A model generated the notes under the pieces. It was not told the origin of the DNA. It was given only the letters and a program-made list of their open reading frames with translations, and did no database searches. A stretch of 64,000 nucleotides of DNA, taken from positions 33,861,878 through 33,925,877 of the forward strand of contig NC_079222.1 of the NCBI RefSeq assembly GCF_029633865.1, in the 5' to 3' direction. Both the position numbers and the translations under genes were made by a program. The stretch is from Lampris incognitus (lineage: Eukaryota > Chordata > Actinopteri > Lampriformes > Lampridae). Positions 26,098-59,548 of this stretch are shown here, one piece after another (the first letter of the stretch is position 1; each line of letters opens with the position of its first letter).

Positions 26098-29000
26098 ATG
26101 GCTTTGGTAAGAGGTCAATGATAATAATTTTGCTGTCAATGGCTTATGTTGTATCAATCTAAAACTACCTTTGTTGTCCACAGGGTAGGTATTTATTAAG
26201 AAATGGGATCAAAATGCGCAATTGGAGAGTAATCGGTCGTGTAAGAAGGCATTACAGCCTAACTCCAGGTAGAGTCATTTAATTGATTTGACACTTTTGT
26301 GTGCTGTTTTAATTTGTCTCTGTTTATCGTGTCACAAAATGATACTACTTTCCAGTCACTTCACCACTAATGTACGTACCCCTTGGTCATGATCACAGAT
26401 TATGTCAAATCTTTGCGAACCGTGGTTAATCCAGATATATCCAAGTAAGTGATAGTAGCTGCAATTACTTTTTGAAAATGTTTTTTGGAGCGAATGTGTT
26501 CTCGGATCCAAACTGACCTTTCATGCCCATGCTTTAATGCTATATGCATAGGATCCGAAACATTGGCATTTTGGCCCACATAGATGCAGGAAAGACTACT
26601 ACCACAGAAAGAATGCTCTATTACGCTGGCTATACGAGGACACTGGGAGGTGAGTTTATGGTAAAGACAAGATATTGACATTTTTCAATCATTTAATTAT
26701 CCCTATATTGTTTTCCTTGGCAGTCTTATTTATTATTTCTCTCAATCTCTTTTTTAGATGTTGATGATGGGGATACAGTTACAGATTTTATGGTTCAGGA
26801 GAGGGAGCGAGGGATCACCATACAGTCAGCAGCAGTCACCTTTGATTGGAAAAGTCACAGAATAAATCTAATAGACACCCCAGGTAAAATCAGTGACAAT
26901 TCATTTAAGAAGACGTCTCTGAGGGACTAAAACTGACAGAAATTAAAAGTCATCTGTGTTTTGCATGAATGTGTCTATTTTAGGACATGTTGACTTCACG
27001 TTAGAAGTGGAGCGGGCACTTCGTGTTCTTGATGGGGCAGTTGCTGTGTTTGATGCCTCCGCTGGTGTTGAGGTTTTTTTTCTACCAATCTGAACCTGCT
27101 TATTTTTGGATTTCTAAAACTGTTTTGCTAGATATTTAGGTATGCTCTAAACTTATGTGTTTTTCCGTTTTGTTTTTAATGCTAACAGGCTCAGACTCTA
27201 ACAGTATGGAGACAAGCAGAAAAACATCGTGTGCCTTGTATTTGTTTCCTGAACAAGATGGATAAGCCAGCAGCAAAGTCAGTGATACAACATTTCACCA
27301 ACCTTTAAAAAATTGTTCTTGTTTTTGTTTTGTTTTTTGTAGAATTAGGGTGGATTTTTTTAAGATTTGAGATAAGGAGTCTTAAAGTACATTTTTTCCC
27401 CATAGTTTAAGTTTTTCCATCGAGAGCATAAAGAATAAGCTCCAAGCCAACCCAGTCCTCCTCCAGGTAAATATAAATTAAAACATTTTATGAAATTAAA
27501 ATAAGGTCAAGTCATTAAGGAGTAAACCTAATCTTCTAAATGTTTAAGATAGCTAATTCGTTACAATTATTAACCATAGCCATGACAATGTCATTTTCCT
27601 CTTGATAGTATAACTATAATCAGTGTCCAACATATATTCTTGTTGAGTTGTAATGTACAATTATTTCCCAGATTCCAATTGGCAGTGGAAAGAGTTTTAT
27701 TGGTTTGGTTGACTTGCTAACAAACCAAAAGTTAACGTGGACGATGAAAACCAGAGAAGATGATGGGCGTATGTTTGACATCAAACCCCTGAGTCAATCC
27801 GACAACCCCAAACTCCTACAGACGGCCAGAGAAGCCCGGGCAGGTTTAATTGAGCAGGTACAAGTAATAACATTTTCACAACACTGACAAAACTTAAAGA
27901 ATACTATTTAAGTGGAAGTTAATTATTTTATTCAAATGTTTTCTGCCAATAAAGCATCTTTCCTTTTCATTTACAGATTGCTGATCTGGATGATGAGTTT
28001 GCTGAACTATTACTAACAGATTTTGGTGATAATTTTGATGCTGTTCCTTCCACCAAAGTAAGCACTGTGTTGTTTGACCATAGTATGAGAACTTAAAGGG
28101 AAATATTTACCTGGGAATAAAGGAAGCACATTTTTGCACAGAATGGATAGAGATATGTGTTGACCTGTTTCAAGTTTGTCTTTTGCATTTGTTGTCAGCT
28201 CCAAGAGGCTGTGCGGCGTATAACTCTGGCACGTAAAGGGGTCCCGGTGGTCTGTGGGAGCTCTTTGAGAAACAAAGGTGTTCAGCCTCTTCTAGATGCC
28301 ATCACTGCCTATCTACCTGCACCCAATGAGAGACACCATGACCTGGTGTGAGTAAATTGTGTACTATTTTACAGAAGTAGAAACATTCTTAACAGCATTT
28401 TAACATAATCTGTTGTAACTAAGCATTCCATATGAATGAACAATCTGAGCATGCAGCCTTCTGGTTGTTGAGGTAGCTCTATTTGCTCTACACCTGCACA
28501 TTTTGGCCATTAATTTTCATACAGGAAGTGGTACAAGGATGACCTTTGCGCCCTGGCCTTTAAGGTTCTCCATAACAAGCAACGCGGTCCCCTGGTTTTT
28601 TTGAGGATCTACTCTGGTACTGTAAAACCCCAGACAGCTGTCTACAACATCAACAGCAACAATATGTAGGTGTCTCCCATTACACCTCAATTACACACTG
28701 ACTTCTGCGTGCGTTGCTGGATCATGATAACTGTTACAAGTATATTCTAGAACTAGGATGGGCAACTTTGATGATACAGAGGGCCACAAAAAGTTTTTTT
28801 TTTCCAGATTTTTCTCCCCAATTGCACTTGGCCAATTACCCCACTCCTCTGATACATGTGGAGTTGCCAGCTGCTTCTTTTCACCTGACAGTGAGGAGTT
28901 TCACCAGGGGGATGTAGCGCATGGGAGGATCACGCTATTCCCCCCAGTCCCCCCTTCCCTTGAACATGTCTCTTCTCATCGTGTGTTGTTGCGGAAGAGG

Positions 29001-43950: not shown

Positions 43951-44461
43951 TTTGAGCAATTTCAATCAGGATTCCGTACCCACCACAACACAGAAACAGC
44001 TCTCATTAAAGTTAATGACTTATTGCTCACCGCTGACTCTGGTGCTTGCTCAGTTTTAATTCTGGTTGTCCTGAGTTCCACTTTTGATATGGTTGACCAC
44101 GACATCCTTTTACAAATTGCCTGGAAAACTATGTTTTAGTGCTCTTGCCTGGTTCCGATCCTACCTATCTGACAGATCTTTCTGTTATAATGGGAGAATT
44201 CTCTTCATCCCCAGCCCCCCCTCCACATGTTGTGTCCCCCAGGGGTCAATTCTTGGTCCATTATTATTGTCCATTTACACGCTCCCCCTGGGTCAGATCA
44301 TCCGTCATCATAATATTAATTTTCAGTTATGCGGATGACATCCAGCTTTATGTCCCGCTTACTGGTAATGACACACACTATTTTTGTTGTGTGTGTTATA
44401 GCTTGTCTCTCCGCTATCAAGTGCTGGATGTCACAAAACTTCCTCCAGCTCAATGAGCCAA

Positions 44462-44889
44462 CCCAGCTAGCATCCGGATGTGGGCCACTTCAGGCAGTGA
44501 TGCGGCACTGATGGCCTTCTTCCGGCCCTGACAAAATGGATGTGAGCCTGAAGTGGCCCACATGTATAACAGCACATAAGTCCCAAATATGCCGAATCAA
44601 ATGTGGGCCTTTTTTGGTAAAGATGCGGTGCTCTCAGCAACATGTAATTTGGATGTGACCCTGAAGTGGCCCGTGTGGTAAATGGTGAATATGGCCCAAA
44701 TATCTCAAAACAAATATGTGCCACCTTTGGCAAATATGTGGCACATGTGGCATTGCTATGGCTTGGTTCTGGCCCAGATCTGGCAAACAGGAGCGGACCT
44801 CCCAAGTGCCATCATTCCACACAGTATGTGGGCCGGATGAAGTGTCGGGTGTAGGACGGGTCCGGGCCACAGCAATTTTGCTATCTGGG
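44462..44889. mobile_element. TIR element inserted in the L2 reverse transcriptase
   Basis: Ends CCCAGCTAGCA (left) and, on the other strand, TCCCAGATAGCAAAATTGC (right). It is made of internal near-repeats around GATGTGGGCC, GTGGCCC and CAAATATGTGCCAC. It has no coding capacity. L2 coding sequence stops at Leu-Asn-Glu on the left and resumes at Ser-Glu-Val-Leu-Leu-Phe-Gly on the right. Confidence 0.65.
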
Positions 44890-45793
44890 AAATCTGAGGT
44901 CCTTTTATTTGGGCCCCCTAACCTAACTGGCGACCTGGAAAAGTCTAGGGAACCTGTCTGCTAATGTTAAGCACTGCGCTTGCAATTTGGGTCTTTTTTG
45001 ACTCCAAGCTCCGTTTTGACACACAAATCACCAAGGTAGTACAGTCTTGTTTTCTCCAAATTGCAAAAGTTGAAAATGTTCTATTTCAAACGGACCTTGA
45101 AAAAGTCATCTATGCATTCATCTCATCACGTCTGGATTATTGTTAACTCGCTGTAAACAGGGCTCAGTGAAAAGTCCATCTCCCACCTCCTGCTCGTCCG
45201 GTTTGGATAATGGATGGATGGATGGACACATCACTCCCATTCTTGCAATGCTTCACTGGCTACCTGTTAGGCATAGGATTAATTTTAAACTTTTACTAAT
45301 TACTTTTAAAGCCCTACATGGCCTCACTCCTACATATATCACTTACTTACTCACACCCCATGGGCCTGGTCACTGCCTGCACTCCTCAGGCAGATCCTTT
45401 TTAACTGTTCCCTCAGGTAGCCTCGTTACTAAAGGCGACCGGGCGTTTTCTGTTAGAGCCCCACAGCTGTGGGACTCCCTACCTGAGGAATCAGACTAGC
45501 AAACTCACTGCCTTCTTCTAAATCACTCCTTAAAACTTACTTTTACAGGAAGGCTTTTTTATAGTAAATCCATTGTTGCCCTGTTTTTATTCTTTTTTTT
45601 TTAAAACTGTTCATATCTTATACTTTGATAATTCCATATATTTAACTCTTTATATTTTTCTGGTATTGCTCTGCGATGTGGTAGAAAGGGCTGTTCACAG
45701 CCTTCCGATTCCCAGTTAAATGTGCAGCGCAGTCATTTCCACATGGTACAATATTCCTCCACAACACATCCAGTACCTCATAGAATTCATGCT

Positions 45794-48412: not shown

Positions 48413-51400
48413 TCAACCATGCGACAGCGGTGTATAGACAGTCTCCTGTAGGCATCATCAAGATCAGTCACGTCCTTGGCACTCCACAACCGTTCCGCTA
48501 CAGCACTGGCACGAGGCCTTGAAACAAGGGAAAAGGAAAAACCTTAAGTGACTGAATTAAAATATGATCGATAATGACCGATAATCACATATGAATCATA
48601 CCAGAGCCTGGGTGTCAGGTTAGTGGCATCCACGTACTCCCCCCACAGACAGGCTTCCCCACCAATCACTAGCTTCTTCTGGGCTTCAGTTCCTGTGTCA
48701 AATTATGTTTAATAGACGATTAAATCAGAAATCACAGGAAATGCACCATTAGTTCAAAACCTAAATTGTCTGTAGATCGTTTTAAAACACTGAACTTTAT
48801 AATGAAGAATTATTTGGTGACCTGTTGCTCTGTATGTGTAATACACTAAAATATTCCCTCTTCTTCATCCAACAGGCTTTCATGCATTTGCAAAGAGGTG
48901 ACAAAATAAAAACCCCATGACTCTTTAAGCCGTCATTCAGACAACGTTGAACCTCAATACAGAGTAATTATTGATAAGCTAAGGTCTGCAATCCCATGCC
49001 ATAGTAAAATGACAAAGCATCTTAGCATTCTGGGGTAGAATGACAACAGGACAATAAAGCATGTATAACGCTAAAGGCAACGATCCCAACATCCATGCTG
49101 AAATAAAGCATGACTGGCTGTGGCTAAAACAAGTTCACAACTGTAAAGAAACTAAAAATTCCATACAATTACAGGCCAACAAAAATTATCATAATGGAGC
49201 ATACCACAAGGACATTTTGCTTGCACCAGCATCACTAAGAGCAAGTTAACTTCTTGTGATGTGCATGAAACAGTTATGCAAACACAAACCATTGAAGTGC
49301 TGTGGGTCGGCCTTGTAAATGCCGCGCCAATCCTGGCCGTAGGAGATACGGTTCAGGTACCAGGGAGTGGAGAGCAGGGTCTGGTACCCTGATGATGTAA
49401 CCTTTGCCATCTCTTCCTGGTATTGCTGCTGGTTTCCTTTCCACACATGTATAAGTGTGTCTGGTTTCAGCTACACAGCACACATATGCATTTTTAGTAC
49501 CAGGAATGGTAAGATTAACTAGAAACTGGGGAAGAACAAAGAAAATACAGGAGGAGCCTTCCATGTTGTTTGTTGGGTACATGCAAGACAGTAAGATGAT
49601 GTAAGCTAAAAAGATGAAAGGCTGATGTTCTTCGTAAGTCAGTAAGTAAGTAAGAGTTTATTTATATAGCACCTTTTAAAATGAAGTAAGAAAGTGCCGC
49701 ACAAGATACTACTACTACTACTAATTTTGGCTGCTCCCGTTAGGGGTCGCCACAGCGGATCATCCGTTTCCATCTCTTCCTGTCCTCTGCATCTTCCTCT
49801 GTCACACCAGCCACCTGCATGTTCTCTTTCACCACATCCACAAACCTCCTCTTTGGCCTGGCAGCTCCATATTCAGCATCCTTCTCCCAATATACCCAGC
49901 ATCGCTCCTCCACACGTCCAAGCCATCTCAATCTTGCCTCTCTTGCTTTGTGTCCAAACCGTCCAACCTGAGCTGTTCCTCTAATATAATCATTCCTAAT
50001 CCTGTCCTTCTCTGTCACTCCCAATGAAAATCTTAGCATCTTCAACTCTGCCACCTCCAGCTCCACCTCCTGTCTTTTCATCAGTGTCACTGGTCTCACG
50101 ACCATCTTGTAAACCTTCCCTTTAACTCTTGCTGGTACTTTTCTGTCACAAATCACTCCTGACACTCTTCTCCACCCTGCCTGCACTCTCTTCTTCACCT
50201 CTACTCCTTGCATCCTTACTGTTCTACTGTCCTCCCTCTCATTCACGCATATGTATTCCATATTGCTGCGACTGACTTTCATTCCTCTTCTCTCCAGTGC
50301 ATACCTCCACCTCTCCAGGCTCTCCTCAACCTGCACCCTACTCTCGCTACAGATCACAATGTCATCTGCAAACATCATCGTCCATGGAGACTCCTGCCTG
50401 ATCCTGTCCGTCAACCTGTCCATCACCACTGCAAACAAGAAAGGGCTCAGAGCCGATCCTTGATGTAATCGCACCTCCACCTTGAACCCATCTGTCATTC
50501 CAACCGCACGCCTCACCATTGTCACACTTCCCTCATACATATCCTGCACCACTCCTACATACTTCTCTGCAACTCCCGACTTCCTCATACAATTACCACA
50601 CCTCCTCTCTCGGCAACCTGTCATATGCTTTCTCTAAATCCACAAAGACAGAATGTAACTGGCCTTCTCTATACTTCTCAATCAACATTCTCAAAGCAAA
50701 CATCTCATCTGTAGTGCTGCACAAGATACAGATACAGAAAAATAAACAACCTACATACAGAAAAGTATAAATTACAGACCTTTATAGGGAAGGCAAGTTG
50801 GTAGAGATGAATTTGGAGAAGTTTTTTTTAAAGTTGTTTACAGATTCAGCTGATCTAACAGTGGTGGGGAGACTGTTCCAGAGGGACAGGGCCCTTACGG
50901 CAAAAGCACAGTCACCCTTACATACTTCTCTGCAATTCAACTTAAGCGACTTTGAGTATTAGAAAAGCGCTATATAAGTTTATTATTATTATTATTACTA
51001 CCCTTGGCTTTGCGGAGGGAGCGGGATATAGATAAGAGACGCTGGTCGGAAGACCTGAGTGGCCCAGAGGTGGAGTAAGGATGTATAAAAATGTATAAAG
51101 GGGCAAGACTATGTAGGGCAAGGTTCCTCACTTAGTTTTCCCTAGCAAAAGTTGTTTTATGTGCAGATGTTGTTGTTGCTGCTATGATAATGATTATTAT
51201 TATGATCACTGTTATTATTATCATTACCATTATTATTATTATCAGTAATAGTAGTAGTAGTAGTAGTAATAATTTAGGCCTAGGACTCTTAAAGCCTGTG
51301 CTGAGGGTCACACAGGAAAAAAAACGTACTCTTGAAACAAAATAAGTCCAAAACCAACCATTTAACTATGGACAAATGGTCAAAAATAAATGGATGTTCA

Positions 51401-54400
51401 TTCACCAGTCAGTGAGAGAAGAGAGAGCGACAGGATGAGGCAATCCTTCTGATGTTGGGTCTGTTTTCTGTTGTGGCAAGCCTGAGTCACTGGCCAAAAT
51501 GTGCATAGGTGAGTCTGCTTCTTTCCTGGTTCTAGATCGAGTGTGAGTAGGAGCACTGCAATAGCTCTCATGTTTTTGAATCAAGCTTGGGGAACCACAT
51601 TGATCCAACGTCTTTGTGTTGTGCTTTGAGCAAATCAGATGTTCCCACCTCCAAGACCTCCATCTGAAGAACTGCCTCATCTACGGATGGTACCAGCCTT
51701 CTGGCCCCTGCAGTCCACTGGCTGTCAGCTATAATGGAGAATGGCTGTCTCAGTAAGAGGACGATGTCACCTGAGAGTTTAGGGGGGCTTTCAAACCATT
51801 CCTTGAAGTTTTCTGCCCGTTTTCACGAAATCCTTCAACGCTGGATCACACTGCATTTTGTTTTTCCGAGGGCTGCAGACTACCACATGCCTCTTCCGAT
51901 ACATGTGGAGTCGCCAGCCGCTTCTTTCCACCTGCCAGTGAGGAGTTTCGCCACGGGGACGTAGCGCGTGGGAAGATCACGCTATTTCCCCCCAGTTCCC
52001 CCCCCCGAACAGGCGCCCCGACCGACCAGAGGAGGCACTAGTGCAGCGACCAGGAAACATACCCCCATCCGGCTTCCCACCCGCAGACACGGCCAATTGT
52101 GTCAGTAGGGACGCCCGATCAAGCTGGAGGTAACACGGGGATTCGAACCGCCGATCCTCATGTTGGTAGGCAACGGAATAGACCGCTACGCTAACCAAAT
52201 GCCCGTCCTGAGTCAGTTTTTAATTGACAATGGGATGCAGTTAATTTCAGAATGCGCTATAAAAAATAAAAATAAACAAAAAACAACGAACAGGTCAGGT
52301 GGGTAATTCAACTATATTCGGTCCCCACATAATAAGTCTCCTGCAGAGCTGTGGACCCTTTCTCTTTTTTTCTTGGCTAAAGTCAACATGCACAATTCTA
52401 CATATTGAACAATTTAACCCATCGGACTGAATCTAACTGAACCTAGTGCACACCAACAGCTAATACCAAAGAAACACCACTAAATTTGCCAACTAACCAC
52501 ACCTCACCATGTTGTCTCTCTCCACATCTCAGTGAGACACATCTGTCTCTTGTCAATACTTTGTCACAGCTATGCAATTCACGAGCATGAGCCTGTTGAA
52601 GGAAGTCTAGTTTTAGATTTCAGTTTTGACAAACTGAAGGACTACACCCAAAGTGGCCAGAATATGTTGCTCTACCCATAGAGATCTTTAGTGTGTGAAC
52701 TGAAAGGACACAACCCTACTTAATGAAGACTGACCCTTGAAGTTAAGCGGCTCAACCTTGTAGTACTTCTGCCAGTCCTGTCCGTAGCTAATGTAATCTA
52801 GGTACCAAGGGGAAGAGAGGATGGTTGCGTAGCCTTCTGCCGTCACATTGTGCAACTCTTCCTCCAGCTTGTTGCCAATCCACACATGCACTACTGTGTC
52901 TGGTTTGAGCTGCAATTCACAATCAGGCTGAACTACTGTACTCAACTTAGGGACAGATGAAGATGTTTATCGTTATCATGCTTTGAAAAGCAAATGTAAT
53001 TAACGACATACCACTCAAAACAAAAATCAAAACTCATTTTAGTACTAAAGCATGCAACAATGGCAATATGAATGAAGTGTGACAAAATGTGTCTTTGGTT
53101 ACCTTAACTCCGTTGTCAAAGACTTCCTGCCATATCACGTAGCCCTTTTGTGTTGTAGCGACGATATCCAAGAGTCTACCAGTTCAAATGAGAGAAGAAC
53201 AATTGTGTTTTTATTTATTTATTTATTTTGTTAGGGACTGGGTTTAAAAAAATAGATTTCTCTCAGAATCAAATTAGTCCTAGGCTCCTTTTTAATAGTA
53301 GAGCTTTATTTTTCTTGCTAGTATTACTATATCTTGTGTTTGGATTGTGCATAAATATAACGGATATGCATGATGGGAAAATGCATCTCTGCTGTACACA
53401 CTTTTATCAGATTTCTCTGGCCATGCAATATGCTGATTTCCTTACACGTCAAATTACTTCCTTTTTTTTCCCTCCTTTTTCTCCCCAATTGTACCTGGCC
53501 AATTACTCCACTCTTCTGAGATGTCCTGGTCACTGCTCCACCCCCTCTGCCGGTCTGGGGAGGGCTGCAGACTACCACATGCCTCCTCCGATACATGTGG
53601 AGTCGCCAGCCCCTTCTTTTCGCCTGACAGTGAGTTTCACCAGGGGGACGTAGCGCATGGGAGGATCACGTTATTCCCCCTCCCCCCCGAACAGACGCCC
53701 TGATTGATCAGAGGAGGCACTAGTGCAGCGACCAGGACACATACCCACATCTGGTTTCCCACCCGCAGACATGGCCAATTGTGCCTGTAGGGATGCCCGA
53801 CCAAGCTGGAGGAAACACGGGGATTCGAACCGGCGACCCCCGTGTTGGTAGGCAAGGGAATAGACCGCTATGCTACCCGGATGCTCTAATTACTTCCGCT
53901 TTTAACATCACTTACTATAAAAACTTCGAGCAAACAGTTTGACCTTGAGCTCTTATTTGGAATTGAGCGCAAATTTGTGTCTCTTTCTGATGCAGTTCCT
54001 ATAGGTGGACTGGAGACGGATCAGACTTCCTCAAAGTTGCCTAATGTGGTCAATTGCGTATAACCACAGTGAAATACATTTCATTCACCCTTAATGCTTA
54101 TTCACACCAGCTAAGAAGAGATCCTGCAAATGAAAACCAGCAAATATCTGCCTGAACGTATGACATACTTCTGAATGTAGAACGACTCCAGCATGCTGTA
54201 GTCCCCTCCAAAACCTTGCTGATCCATGAACTTCTGAATGTCTGGGTTGGACCTCCTGTGGGTGGAAGAAAAACATCAGATGTATAATCTTGATTATAGG
54301 ATACGGAAATAAACAAATTAAACATGACTTTTTCAACAACCCAGATAGAAAACATGCGACAAAGCAGGGTGGAGAGCGATGGGGAAGGATGAGTCTGTCT

Positions 54401-57400
54401 CTTTAACAGAGGGGCACACATCAGATTCCCGGCGGCCGGAGACGGGCAAAGATAGAGTGGCTATACAAAAGTCCACACACCCCTGGTAAAATGGCAGGTT
54501 TTTGTGATGAAAAAAAAATGAAACCAAGATAAATCATGCCAGAACTTTTTACACTTTTTTTTTAATTGCAACCTATATAAAATAAAGTGAAAATCAATCA
54601 AATATTTTGAGGGAAGAAAAAGAAAAATACAAAATCAACATGTAACAAAATACAAATACATGTCAAATGTATCAAAATAAACTATAGAAATACTGGGGTC
54701 AAAAATGTAATAAATTAAAATACATGTATTTTGTGTTTCAAATGCCAAACAAAATACATAGCACCTGAAATGTTAGAATATCCCCAGAGGCTGCTTCTGC
54801 AGAGGAACCAGTTTGTGTTATGGTCAAAGACAAAGACGACAACTGATTGTGAGAGGTTTTCCTAAAAAATGTGGGTCTACAGGGACGTCCGGGTAGCGTA
54901 GTGGTCTATTCCATTGCCTACCAACAGGGTGATCGCTGGCTCGAATCCCTGTGATACCTCCGGCTTGATCGGGCATTGCTACAGATACAATTGGCTGTGT
55001 CTGCGGATGGGAAGCCAGATGTGGGTATGTGTCTTAGTCGCTGCACTAGCGCCTCCTCTGGTCGATCGGGACGCCTGTTCAAGGAGGAGGGGGAACTGGG
55101 GGGAATAGCGTGATCCTCCCATGTGCTACGTCCCCCTGGTGAAACTCCTCACTGTCAGGTGAAAAGAAGCAGCTGGCAACTCCACATGTATCGGAGGAGG
55201 CATGTGGCAGTCTGCAGCCCTCCCCGGATCGGCAGAGGGGGTGGAGCAGCGACCGGGACGGCTCGGAAGAGTGGGGTAATTGGCCGGGTACAATTAGGGA
55301 GAAAAAGGGGGGAAAAGACTAAAAAAAAAAAAAAGTCCCTCGGTCTCTAACCCTAACCCACAAATAAACGGCAGCGGTTTCAGCACGGTGACGGGGGTCT
55401 CACCAGCAGTTGAAGTCAACCTCGTCGCCCCCAAGATGAACGTATTCATCAGGGAACACTGTGCTGATCTCCTTGAAGAACTGGCTCATAAAATCATAGG
55501 TGGTGTTCAGGATGGGGTTAACTGGTCCAAAAGTTCCAGAGGGACTGGACCCAGAGTAGCAGGGTGTAAGTAGGTCTTTTTGGCCTGAAAAGGGAAAAGG
55601 AGTCTTAGGGAATATGGCTTGTTGTATTCATAGCTTTCACTTTTTTTTAACAATGAAAACATATTGGGACACTCTATGCTTGCCTAATTACCTGAATTTT
55701 GAGCGACACAAATGTTGCCTCATTAAAATGAAACTAATGAACAAGGCACTGACCACAAGACATTTCTCTCCAGTAATATGTACAAAACTGACCTTTGCCC
55801 CAAGACTGAGTGTGCCCTGGAGTATCAAACTCCGGCACAACACGAATGCCTCTCAGACGGGCAAATTCAATAACCATCTTCACATCAGCAGGTGTATACA
55901 CATGTGTGTATGGGTGGTAAGCTCCCTATGAACACATAGTTCAGTCAAATAATCTCCTTAGGAGTGACTGAGCAAGATCAAATGTGCTTGTATTAAAAAA
56001 AACAAAAACAAAAACACACACACAAAAAACCCAACAACTTAACATTTGTGTGTTTTTAATTCAACTGTACAGCTTTCTCGGTTAATTGTGTGTTTTAACA
56101 TAACTTATCACACTGACCTGCTGGCTCAGCTGTGGAAAGGTTCGGCTGAAGTATGGGAAGGAGGGGTCATCCACGATGTGCCAGTGAAATACATTGAATT
56201 TGTTCATTGCCATTGCTTCCTGCGGCAAAGAGCAAGGAGAAACACATAATGAAAATAAACTACTCTTATTATATTGAAATTAAAATGAGAAGGTCAAATT
56301 AGAAGGTCAATTTGACCTACCAGATTTGCCAAGATGACTTTAATGGGCAAGAAGTGCCGAGAGCTGTCCAGTAAGACGCCTCTATGTGCAAATCTTGGGA
56401 AGTCACTGATTTCTGTTGCGTTGATGGTTTTCTGAAAGGAGGCGAAGTAAATCAGCAGGAGTCAAAATCAATCTTACATCAGATTAAACCTTTCTTGACA
56501 TCACTTTATTTCTGTTAATGGAAACTGAAGATGTGAAAATGGATGCCCATACACACATACAATGATCTTCTTGTAGAACCTCAAAACAAAACAAACTTCC
56601 TTAATGCGATTAAAAAGTTAAAGGGAGTTTAAATTCATTGTTTGGATTAAAGTTTGGATTTATTGACATTAGGTGGTATGAGTAACCACAAGAGAGTTAG
56701 CGATGCACGGACGTGACCCTGGTTGGTGACTCCCGTGGTAAAAGACCTGGCTGCTAGTCCCAGCTAGCAAGCAAAAAAAAAAAAAGAAAAAGGAAACAAA
56801 GCAAACAGGGTCAGCTAAGAAAAACACTTTAAGCCTTAATAAAACAAAGATTATAAGATCTGTGAAAACTAATTTTTTCCTCTGACCCAGTTTGCTGCTA
56901 TTCATTTTTCTGCCAGATCTGACCACGAGAGTCCCACCGACACCATCTCATGGTAACTCATATCAGCTAGTGTCAACAAATCCAACCATCCCATTAAGAA
57001 CAACTACGTTTGGATCTGGCTGTGGCAGTTAACTTACGGCTCCATGCTCATCTTCATACACCAACTGGCTGAAAGTTTCAAGACCTATCAAGAAGGAAAC
57101 AAGATAACAGAAAAACAAGGCCATTAAAGCACTGTCAACTAGTAATTATTTTCTATCACACAACAGATGTTAAAGTTCAACACACACACACACACAAGTG
57201 AAATGCACATCAGCTAAGATACCGTGGGTCTTTAATTTGAGGTAGTGTTGTCAATTCAATTCAATGACCATATGACACAAACATAACATGTTATGACTTA
57301 CATTTTTAAAAATAGATCACCTGAAACTTCTCAATATTTGAATAAGAAGTTATGAAGTCTATCTGTAACCTTTGATTTCAACTGGTATTATGAAAGAAGA

Positions 57401-59548
57401 CAAAAAAAAAAATCATACCACGCAGAGCACCCCACACCTTTGGTGCTTTTAACAAAGCATAGGTCTGGTTAACTGAAAGCTCATCTGTTGGGACAGACAG
57501 ATGAAATTGTGGTTTAACATAACAAACATACATATTTAACAAAATATAAGAATGTAGCAATGATTTGGCAAAATATACTGCAGTATAAAAATATGCCGTT
57601 AACATGGTTAGATATAGGTCCCTTTCACACTTGAAAGTCCAAACCAAGGTCTGAACCAGAGTCTGGTTCTGGTGCTTTCACATCTGTTATTTTATAGTCA
57701 TTAGGTTCAGGATTTTTGCTTTCATACCAGCGGACCTTGACTTGAACTTTTGGCTCGTTGTTGCTGCCAGGTGCGCTCGTTGTTGCCAGGAGCGCTCGCT
57801 GTTGCTAGGTATTACTGTTTGTGTTTGTTTGATCACTTCCTATGATCGATCCGAAAGTCCGAACCTTTGATTTCACATTAGACATTCATGAACCTTGGTC
57901 TGAACCGAGACTACCTCCTGAGCTTGGACCAAAGACCGAGTCTTTGATCCCTGTACCCTGGTCCAAGAGGTTTCACACCTGGCAATCTGGTAAGGACTTT
58001 TCTGGAAAGTCTGAAAGTCCGGACTAAACAACATAAGTGTGAAAGGGCCCTATATAGTGTACCAATGGGAACTATAAAATCGGCTGCGGTGACCCCTTAG
58101 AAACAGGGAACAAGCCGAAAGAAGAAGATGGTCAGATACAGTGTATATATGTAACCAAGCCAATTTCTTTCCCAATAAGCCTACCGGTACTTTTCAATTT
58201 TGTCACGTACTAGAACCATATTTACTGCCACGTAGTTCATGAACATAAAGGGAATTTGACCTGGCATGTTGGTGCAAGAGGGAAAATTAACAGCAACAGT
58301 AATGTTTTGTTTTGGGTTTTTTTTTACTACCAATGGTTTATTGTATCACAGCCCAACAGTGCTAAATTTGAGTCTTTATGGCTCGGAGAATTTCACTGGT
58401 CTCAATTAACCGTTCCCTGTAAAAGTCGATGTCGTCATAATCTCCAATTCTATTAGAAAAACTTGAGGAAACCCTCCCCCCTGTCTTTAGAAATAAAACC
58501 ACCTCCGGCCAGGCAAGATAAATTTCGGGGGGGGGGTGGTGGATCAAACCATTTTCGAAGCATGGGGGGTGCTGTATTTTTGTTGTTAAAATATTACGTT
58601 TAAACCATATACTGGATATGGTTTTGACATTTCCTCAGCTTATCAAACATGGACATACAGTAAAAAAATAAAAATAAAAAATCTCTTCAATTTTAGGGGT
58701 GCTGGGGTTCAATTTAGGGGCGCTGCAGCACCCCCAAAAATGGGCTAGAAACGCCTATGCTACCGGGTTTCATTTGAACACACTGTGCGCATACTGAATA
58801 CAGGACCTACTGTGAATTAGCCCAAATCAGGCCCGGGCTGGCCTCGTCAGAGCGCTGGCTAAACTCACATGACTCGTCCGACGCTGCGCGGGGGTAACCG
58901 TCACATTCGGGGTCGGGCGACGTGATCCACACCTGTAGCTCCGCCAGCCCAGGCGCACCCAGCGCGGTCACTCTCCTGGCGTCTGCGGGATTTCTCGCGT
59001 TACCGAACACGTATTCGTAGTACCTGCAAATCGAAACAACAAAAGCATGTTTTGTTTTTCTTCTTCTGTGTGGCCAGTGATTCAGAAAAGGGCACTTGTG
59101 GAAACACTTCCGATTTCAGCTTGACATGGGACAGGACTGTCTTTCTGACAGAGGAACCAGTTTAAGGCTACGTCTTACAATATTATAACGTATTAACTAC
59201 ACTTTACGATATTATAACGTGTTAACTACACTTTACGATATTATAACGTGTTAAGTACACTTTACAATATTATAACGTGTTAACTACACCTCACCTTCTG
59301 TAAGCGTTCTGCAGGAGGCTGCAGCTTGAACCTGCAGTGGAGTCTTTGGAGTCAACCACTTGGAACGCGGAGCCAGCTAATTTGAATGAAACGGTCGAAA
59401 TCCGCACGTTCTGCGGCAAAGGCCAAACAGAACCGTATTCGGAACCGCCATCGACGAGCTCGTCCTCTGTGTTCATGTTGCTGCATCGTAGCCCCCGACA
59501 AATCGCAACGGCGACCATCAACACGAAAAACCCCGGACTTGCGAGCAT
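48413..59548 (-). CDS. hexb: Beta-hexosaminidase subunit beta (lysosomal, GH20)
   Basis: Cleaves terminal GlcNAc/GalNAc from glycans and, as HexA/HexB dimers, gangliosides. Thirteen exons were placed on the minus strand: 59295-59548, 58869-59023, 57419-57484, 57038-57084, 56321-56431, 56118-56219, 55793-55925, 55404-55584, 54169-54255, 53103-53175, 52735-52909 (or 49290-49470), 48602-48692 and 48413-48517. They join in frame for 526 codons plus two bases (human 556 aa). A hydrophobic signal peptide starts at [10 protein letters not shown]20 motifs: [26 protein letters not shown] and HLGGDEV (catalytic Asp343-Glu344). The C-terminal part has [13 protein letters not shown] and [16 protein letters not shown]. 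Several N-glycosylation sequons are present (NQT, NAT, NTT, NVT). The last small exon (expected Arg-Gly-Ile...Gly-Tyr-Cys) was not found; it should lie between 47931 and 48412. Exon 11 is duplicated (see separate entry). Confidence 0.95.
49290..49470 (-). CDS. hexb: Alternative hexb exon 11' with alpha-subunit-type active-site residues
   Basis: A second, intact copy of exon 11, 3.3 kb downstream of the first in gene direction. It has 60 codons plus one base. It begins in phase 0 after an AG (GTGTAG) and ends AATG|GTTTGT, the same phases as exon 11. It encodes [17 protein letters not shown] at the start and [14 protein letters not shown] in the middle. Human HEXA has Asn-Arg at this place, where these residues (N423, R424) bind the acidic group of GM2 or sulfated sugar; human HEXB has Asp-Leu. 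The exon is also two codons longer than exon 11, as HEXA is, and lacks the NVT sequon. Each copy is 3n+1 long, so only one can be used per transcript. The donor GTTTGT is weaker than that of exon 11 (GTCAGT). Confidence 0.88.
49710..50718 (-). mobile_element. RTE-like LINE, 5'-truncated, 11-bp target duplication
   Basis: The minus strand encodes the reverse transcriptase C-terminal half, open over 49740-50624 apart from small damage. It has a [10 protein letters not shown] motif, [12 protein letters not shown] (catalytic Asp-Asp) and the tail Arg-Trp-Leu-Gly-Arg-Val. The element ends in (AGT)n at 49710-49722. GCACAAGATAC flanks it on both sides (49699-49709 and 50719-50729). It interrupted another dispersed repeat. 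It lies in the intron between the two hexb exon-11 copies. The same family's 5' part is at 4566-5457. Confidence 0.88.
50730..51867. other. hexb intron, dispersed repeat and trinucleotide arrays
   Basis: 50730-50960 continues the repeat interrupted by the LINE (GTGGGGAGACTGTTCCAGAG). (ATT)n and (AGT)n arrays lie at 50981-50998 and 51190-51265. The rest to 51867 is not recognised and has no conserved frame. Confidence 0.45.
51868..52204 (-). mobile_element. tRNA-derived SINE, copy 8 (tail part missing)
   Basis: Keeps the body and the tRNA-like head with B box GGTTCGAATCCC (inverse at about 52138-52149). The tail-side 100 bases are missing. It lies in the intron between the two hexb exon-11 copies. 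Confidence 0.83.
53462..53887 (-). mobile_element. tRNA-derived SINE, copy 9, with 10-bp target duplication
   Basis: Full-length copy in the intron between hexb exons 9 and 10. AATTACTTCC flanks it (53452-53461 and 53888-53897). The B box GGTTCGAATCCC is intact (inverse at 53820-53831). Confidence 0.88.
54462..54720. mobile_element. Tc1-like terminal fragment
   Basis: AGTGGCTATACAAAAGTCCA and CACCCCTGGTAAAATGGCAG followed by an A-rich stretch resemble the terminal region of a common fish Tc1-like family. Only one end is seen. Confidence 0.4.
54882..55334 (+). mobile_element. tRNA-derived SINE, copy 10 (full length, plus)
   Basis: Starts GGGACGTCCGGGTAGCGTAG with the A box, then a B box with CTCGAATCCC at 54941-54950. 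It runs through the body to an A-rich tail at 55321-55334. This copy shows that the family's 3' end is A-rich in the plus sense. It is in the intron between hexb exons 8 and 9, antisense to the gene. Confidence 0.88.
57617..58050. mobile_element. MITE with TA/TATA target, 434 bases
   Basis: Inverted ends GGTCCCTTTCACACTT (left) and GGGCCCTTTCACACTT (right, other strand), both flanked by TATA. The interior has imperfect internal repeats of GTCTGAACC/GGTCTGAACCGAG and GTTGCCAGG. It is non-coding. It lies in hexb intron 2. Its ends are similar to 6004-6912. Confidence 0.75.
58051..58868 (-). other. hexb intron 2 remainder
   Basis: Includes a G-rich run (58529-58537) and GGGGTGCTGGGGTTC...GCACCCCCAAAAATGGG near 58697-58744, a self-complementary G/C-rich patch. 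No family can be named with confidence. Confidence 0.4.
59177..59292. repeat. 29-bp minisatellite, four units, touching the hexb exon 1 donor
   Basis: Four tandem units of ACGATATTATAACGTGTTAA... (29 bases) with few differences. The last unit overlaps the exon 1 donor site (minus strand GTGAGG at 59289-59294). Confidence 0.92.

Follow-up and report, generated by a model that had tools for sequence, protein, structure and literature searches.

Why should one gene for a beta-hexosaminidase (Hex) subunit carry two versions of the very exon that bears, in the human enzyme, on the choice between neutral and charged substrates? In human Hex, the difference between N423-R424 of the alpha subunit and D452-L453 of the beta subunit is the main reported cause of the preference for negatively charged substrates: the Arg pairs with the 6-sulfate of 4-methylumbelliferyl-N-acetylglucosamine-6-sulfate (MUGS) or with the sialic acid of GM2, groups that are repelled by the Asp of the beta subunit (PMC3587417). 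An earlier, sequence-only reading of 64,000 nucleotides from the opah, Lampris incognitus (NC_079222.1, positions 33,861,878 to 33,925,877; this whole stretch is the window below), described two mutually exclusive copies of exon 11 in the hexb gene, one of beta type and one, exon 11', of alpha type at this substrate-charge site. It took alpha Asn423-Arg424, as opposed to beta Asp-Leu, for the contact with the acid group, as that paper supports. The mutually exclusive pair is borne out here by the anatomy of the exons, by their conservation and by cDNA-like contigs for 11'.

The minus strand of the window holds, between 46844 and 59548 (12.7 kb), a complete hexb gene with 14 coding exons and one extra exon, modelled on AG/GT borders with the human HEXB protein as a guide. 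With its 14 exons and a GGDEVDF motif, the gene fits vertebrate HEXB, the beta subunit of family GH20. The form built with exon 11 (547 amino acids) is identical to the letter to the database protein P0001, 'beta-hexosaminidase subunit beta isoform X2 [Lampris incognitus]', and the form built with exon 11' is nearer human HEXB (737.8 bits to 1O7A) than human HEXA (668.3 bits to 2GJX).

Exons 11 and 11' are homologous neighbours between exons 10 and 12 and share 34 of 58 residues. Both have an open frame of 3n+1 nucleotides, with the borders cag/CTC...AGG/gtcagt in exon 11 and tag/CTG...ATG/gtttgt in exon 11', and the positions, lengths, phases and AG/GT borders assigned to them by the sequence-only reading are exact to the base (Table 1). 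Spliced to exons 10 and 12, either one gives a complete open reading frame, of 547 amino acids with exon 11 and 549 with exon 11'. Because both are 3n+1 and run from phase 0 to phase 1, only one of them is usable at a time: with both, a stop falls in exon 12, 189 nucleotides upstream of the last exon junction, and with neither, a stop falls in the same exon, 172 nucleotides upstream of that junction. The one-or-the-other logic claimed for the frame thus holds, and premature stops so placed are expected to undergo nonsense-mediated decay. On sequence similarity, the likeness of exon 11' to exon 11 and to Hex chains is not due to chance; its best PDB match among human Hex chains is 5BRO (E 7.7e-18), which we take to belong to the same series as the engineered proteins modHEXB and mod2B discussed below. 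Aligned with 2GJX, exon 11' carries Asn-Arg at the alpha 423-424 position. The further claim that it has the two extra codons of HEXA stands in part: exon 11 of opah hexa is also 181 nucleotides long, but the human HEXA chain exceeds human HEXB by three residues there. The donor of 11' is the weakest in the gene (2.8 bits, against 4.7-11.1 for the other 13, by a donor matrix), and the acceptors of 11 and 11' have few pyrimidines (8 and 9 of 16), although the acceptors of exons 7 and 12 have just as few. A weak donor and poor acceptors are compatible with regulated use, but prove nothing.

Exon 11' is conserved in many other ray-finned fishes and is not an opah copy with decayed counterparts elsewhere. 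Three protein database searches (best 120 matches each, with queries partly biased towards 11'), merged at 90% identity, gave 198 proteins; the figures drawn from them hold among the matches listed and are no census, and because of the merging and the restriction to best matches the lack of a partner exon type in a species means little. A motif found 209 exon-11-like segments in 197 of the 198 proteins, the beetle P0195 having none. When the segments were classed by nearness to opah exon 11 or 11' with the two switch residues masked, 115 were nearer exon 11 and 94 nearer 11', three clupeiform segments being close calls and two (Coilia and Engraulis) switching class under masking. All 115 segments of the 11 type, three of which are primate HEXB, have Asp, followed by Tyr (102), Leu (8) or Trp (5), and those of the 11' type have Asn in 90 and Arg in 83 of 94. 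Among 160 named fish species, 11' was seen in 88, 11 in 99 and both types in 27; 17 of these 27 have separate proteins (e.g. Danio rerio, Takifugu rubripes, Scomber scombrus and Conger conger) and 10 show both only through one gene prediction that fuses the two exons. Twelve listed proteins hold both exons in one (e.g. Albula P0120 and Gymnothorax P0121), and we read them as gene-prediction errors. Database naming often has X1 for 11' and X2 for 11, Huso X1 (11 type) and Chanos X2 (11' type) being exceptions. Exon 11' was seen in Danio rerio, catfishes, elopomorphs (eels among them), bonytongues, the sturgeon Acipenser (P0143) and the reedfish Erpetoichthys (P0194, with Asn-Val), and up to the percomorphs. 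Since it spans reedfish and sturgeon to teleosts, we conclude from these comparisons that 11' is as old as the ray-finned fishes and already existed in the ancestor from which all living ones descend. The reedfish showed the 11' type alone; exon 11 can be placed in the same ancestor because other ray-finned fishes have it and primate HEXB is of the exon-11 type.

Ten of the listed proteins carry the source label 'lgn'; their contigs measure 1.8-2.1 kb in nine cases and 4.4 kb in the tenth. Two of the ten have 11', eight have 11 and none has both. The two with 11', P0014 (563 amino acids on 1984 bases) and P0069 (564 amino acids on 2110 bases), are each whole on their contig, and because a frame of about 1.7 kb on about 2 kb leaves no room for introns, we take these and the other short 'lgn' contigs to be cDNA assemblies, although an intronless retrocopy may be an alternative. 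In the reef damselfish Acanthochromis polyacanthus, hexb was among 69 genes differentially spliced in a heatwave (PMC8933327).

We propose that hexb of ray-finned fishes probably contains an ancient tandem pair of mutually exclusive exons that would toggle the enzyme between neutral and acidic substrate preference by splicing, a reading that joins the sequences above to analogy with the human enzyme. A beta subunit spliced with exon 11 would have Asp-Tyr next to its active site and favour neutral substrates; one spliced with exon 11' would have Asn-Arg there, bind the acidic group of sulfated N-acetylglucosamine or GM2 and keep the beta-type dimer interface. The choice would be enforced at least by the reading frame, the use of both or neither leading to a premature stop and to nonsense-mediated decay. 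With homodimers or mixed dimers, a single gene could then cover the neutral/acidic split for which mammals use HEXB and HEXA. The exon anatomy, the frame logic, the conservation of both types and contigs implying transcripts with either exon are what the sequences show; regulated splicing, decay, substrate preference and dimer behaviour are what we infer, the substrate difference by way of human biochemistry (PMC3587417, PMC13198282).

What kind of enzyme would the 11' isoform be? The loop encoded by exon 8 reads GSSPSGT in opah hexb, GSEPSGT in human alpha and RQNKLDS in human beta, and because exon 8 encodes it both isoforms share the alpha-like loop. Of the 194 proteins other than those of primates and the beetle, 183 could be parsed, and 172 of these fish hexb proteins have the pattern G..P.G; the three primates have RQNK or RQTK, and the RQNK loop of human beta looks like a derived state. 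The engineered modHEXB, human HEXB with DL452-453NR and RQNKLDS changed to GSEPSGT, lowers GM2 in Sandhoff mice (PMC13198282), and 5BRO, a HEXB chain showing NR and GSEP, is again the PDB entry that best matches the opah 11' isoform. Gln occupies the alpha Pro429 position in all 94 segments of the 11' type, and Lys or Arg the alpha 436 position in 88 of 94. HexM was made a homodimer by a set of changes that includes P429Q and I436K (PMC11698352). Because beta-type interface residues are combined with Asn-Arg and an alpha-like loop, the 11' isoform would be expected, by analogy with these proteins, to form a stable beta-type dimer with alpha-type active sites. A structure prediction of an 11' isoform (P0003, 24 rows) had a mean predicted local distance difference test (pLDDT) score of 63, low over exon 11', and was not used.

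Several points weigh against the proposed switch. When human beta-based hybrids were paired with themselves, they cleaved MUGS but failed to cleave GM2 with recombinant GM2 activator protein (GM2AP), whereas their heterodimers with alpha did cleave it (PMC3587417), and for this reason we hold the claim on acidic substrates more firmly than that on GM2 hydrolysis. Exon 11' may be redundant in the opah, since the opah also has a hexa gene. The Arg is replaced in 11 of the 94 segments of the 11' type: seven have Asn followed by His (3), Tyr (2), Ile (1) or Val (1), and four herring-like fishes, the clupeiforms Clupea, Sardina, Coilia and Engraulis, carry Asp as exon 11 does. The type of the hexb event in Acanthochromis was not found in the available text of PMC8933327, and the splicing and enzyme activity of 11' in the opah are predicted here from the DNA. 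The same variation at the Arg (present in 83 of 94) would suit an explanation in which the exons are truly swapped but tune dimer pairing, the contact with the GM2 activator, stability or the pH optimum, Asn-Arg being incidental. The exons also differ at the 432-433 interface (QK in 68 and QR in 30 of 112 for exon 11; QG in 22, QQ in 10 and RG in 9 of 94 for 11', the rest mixed), and the two-codon insert of 11' near the alpha loop IPV is a further difference between them. We nevertheless consider this explanation rather unlikely: the charge pair splits the masked classes nearly perfectly (Asn in 90 of 94 versus Asp in 115 of 115), and for the human enzymes the effect of this pair is established.

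Far more improbable is that 11' is an artefact of annotation, a piece of hexa misplaced in the assembly, or a copy that is decaying or out of use. A donor of 2.8 bits, the weakest in the gene, and 12 gene predictions with both exons in one protein would fit such a copy, but the frame is open, the borders are intact, the protein is conserved from reedfish and sturgeon to percomorphs, and two cDNA-like contigs carry the exon; on its conservation, the pseudo-exon reading is rejected. The possibility, raised by the sequence-only reading, that 11' is a misassembled piece of hexa is rejected as well, hexa being a separate gene on another contig with a distinct exon 11. A search of the genome with exon 11' found hexb 11', hexb 11 and one hexa exon, besides one further weak match (E 5) that showed no likeness on reading, the copy number of opah hexa and hexb being that of this one search.

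The hexa gene itself complicates the picture. The one exon found outside hexb (match at C9:60605378-60605551) belongs to a gene whose exon 8 matches human HEXA at 72% and HEXB at 56%, and of which pieces of 13 of the 14 expected exons lie in order; because exon 2 was not found in that reading, we do not claim that opah hexa is intact. Its exon 11 (C9:60605372-60605552, in L015; 181 nucleotides, AG/GT borders) reads ...PWYINHIAYGQDW..., with Asn-His, not Asn-Arg, at the acid-binding site of human HEXA; the His may be cationic at lysosomal pH. Intron 10 of hexa holds a relic, a degenerate second exon 11 (C9:60600586-60600747; L014:6587-6748) that is exon-11-like at both ends, with shifted frames and the GT donor absent at the expected place. 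In its unmended form, and with an aligner that tolerates frame shifts (top 14 matches per strand listed), the relic scored 67, 65, 63, 62 and 41 against five queries. It is nearer exon 11 (62-65) than 11' (41), and the 11' query does not stand out on it, because the best unrelated score among those listed is 43 (window, plus strand; 37 and 35 on the minus and plus strands of hexa, the list for the minus strand of the window holding real exons only). At the DNA level, the relic's score with hexa exon 11 is 61, a value reached by none of 93 control pieces; with hexb exon 11 it is 53 (reached by 1 of 93) and with 11' 32.5 (reached by 16 of 93). The hexa exon with intact borders is nearer 11' (195) than opah exon 11 (155). 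Since opah hexa has Asn-His and a degenerate second exon 11, the description of 11' as an alpha-type copy inside a beta gene may be too simple.

How old, then, is the pair? A tree was built on 58 columns from 63 hand-picked rows (57 of 206 fish segments with opah, human and primate references); in its final form of 59 rows the switch was masked, five clupeiform rows were dropped and human HEXB was added. This tree sets fish 11 with primate HEXB apart from fish 11' with both HEXA rows (support 95/77, below the tool's star). The placement of HEXA is unsure, because human HEXA falls on the exon-11 side with the clupeiforms in and on the 11' side without them, and a tree that holds both HEXA rows together is as good (p 0.601). 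On these sequences we favour a duplication older than the split between ray-finned fishes and tetrapods. As for whether 11' is an old retained exon or a converted copy, the question put by the sequence-only reading, the tree of fish, human and primate rows favours the former, but a copy made within hexb is not rejected: a constraint that keeps fish 11 with 11' lowers the log-likelihood by 14.1 units (approximately unbiased test, p 0.168). A tandem duplication inside ray-finned hexb, with the Asn-Arg of 11' convergent with HEXA, in our judgement stands evenly between belief and doubt. This unrejected constraint speaks for it, as does a tree of 58 columns with no lobe-finned or cartilaginous fish gene; the masked tree, which joins primate HEXB to fish exon 11 and 11' to both HEXA rows, and the relic in opah hexa speak against it. 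The broken second exon 11 in opah hexa suggests that the pair may even predate the HEXA/HEXB duplication. In that case an ancestral vertebrate gene would have made both preferences by splicing, these would later have been partitioned between two genes, the Tay-Sachs/Sandhoff pair of mammals, and fish hexb would have kept the splicing; opah hexa, with an 11'-like exon with intact borders and a broken exon-11-like relic upstream, would be a half-finished partition. We regard this scenario as tentative and rather doubtful.

Mutually exclusive tandem exons are a known class. Tandem duplicated exon substitutions in human genes (PMC9741552) are alike in being ancient, homologous neighbouring exons of the same phase, of which one is used and one segment is swapped; the fish swap differs in that it appears to mirror the specificity difference of two paralogues. 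The catalogue starts from human annotation, so an unannotated event in human HEXB would lie outside it. The paralogues HEXA and HEXB (Hex A, B and S) share the GH20 family and the switch position, Asn-Arg versus Asp-Leu/Tyr, but in mammals the choice lies between two genes and in fish hexb between two exons of one gene. Closest in design are modHEXB/mod2B (PMC13198282), the 5BRO chain and HexM (PMC11698352), which also combine a beta-type dimer interface with alpha Asn-Arg and a GSEP-type loop; they were designed for therapy, HexM from alpha and the others from beta, whereas the fish form is natural and spliced, and its activity is predicted. The Acanthochromis study (PMC8933327) concerns the same gene and alternative splicing in fish RNA-seq, but its available text gives no hexb exon, event type or link to substrate specificity. 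Among the papers listed by the literature search (the top 3 to 20 of up to 1,070), whose coverage left out most subscription papers, bioRxiv preprints and supplements, none described a second version of exon 11 for hexb; the claim that none was known stands to that extent, but isoforms X1 and X2 are already named in sequence databases.

Table 1. Coding exons of opah hexb in the window, in the order of transcription
Feature	Positions	Strand	Basis
Exon 1, coding part (ATG at 59548)	59295..59548	-	gene model; protein identical to P0001
Exon 2	58869..59023	-	gene model; protein identical to P0001
Exon 3	57419..57484	-	gene model; protein identical to P0001
Exon 4	57038..57084	-	gene model; protein identical to P0001
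Exon 5	56321..56431	-	gene model; protein identical to P0001
Exon 6	56118..56219	-	gene model; protein identical to P0001
Exon 7	55793..55925	-	gene model; protein identical to P0001
Exon 8; alpha-like loop GSSPSGT and GGDE motif	55404..55584	-	gene model; loop roles from PMC13198282 and PMC3587417
Exon 9	54169..54255	-	gene model; protein identical to P0001
Exon 10 (ends in phase 0)	53103..53175	-	gene model; protein identical to P0001
Exon 11 (175 nt, phase 0 to 1); beta type, with Asp-Tyr as switch residues	52735..52909	-	present in database isoform X2 (P0001)
Exon 11' (181 nt, phase 0 to 1); alpha type in its switch residues, Asn-Arg	49290..49470	-	gene model; 11'-type segments in other fishes
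Exon 12 (starts in phase 1; site of the premature stops of the both/neither forms)	48602..48692	-	gene model
Exon 13	48413..48517	-	gene model; protein identical to P0001
Exon 14, coding part and stop codon	46844..46907	-	gene model; protein identical to P0001

Elsewhere in the window, translated pieces at about 26750-27350 on the plus strand resemble GFM2, a neighbour of HEXB in human, which would support orthology through gene order. Pieces like a reverse transcriptase of the LINE (long interspersed nuclear element) type, noticed by eye in the sequence and through a chance match, lie at 50200-50690 and 44000-45600, one of them between exons 11 and 11'. In the clupeiform proteins P0133, P0136, P0164 and P0175 the 11'-like segment reads Asp-Tyr, Asp-Trp, Asp-Gln and Asp-His, and in P0134 (Denticeps) Asn-Ile; such losses of Asn-Arg would offer a natural test of the charge switch.

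If the proposed switch is real, ray-finned fishes can give a lysosomal enzyme either a HexB-like or a HexA-like active site through splicing. Human HEXA is the enzyme that is lacking in Tay-Sachs disease. The zebrafish models of this disease and of Sandhoff disease would then be affected: loss of hexa alone could be buffered by hexb 11', and loss of hexb would remove both forms. Zebrafish hexb mutants lose >99% of activity, measured on a neutral test substrate (PMC6772114). The 11' isoform would also be a natural, long-tested counterpart of the single-subunit enzyme sought by gene therapy groups, and the locus a tractable case for asking whether a pair of paralogues arose from splice isoforms.

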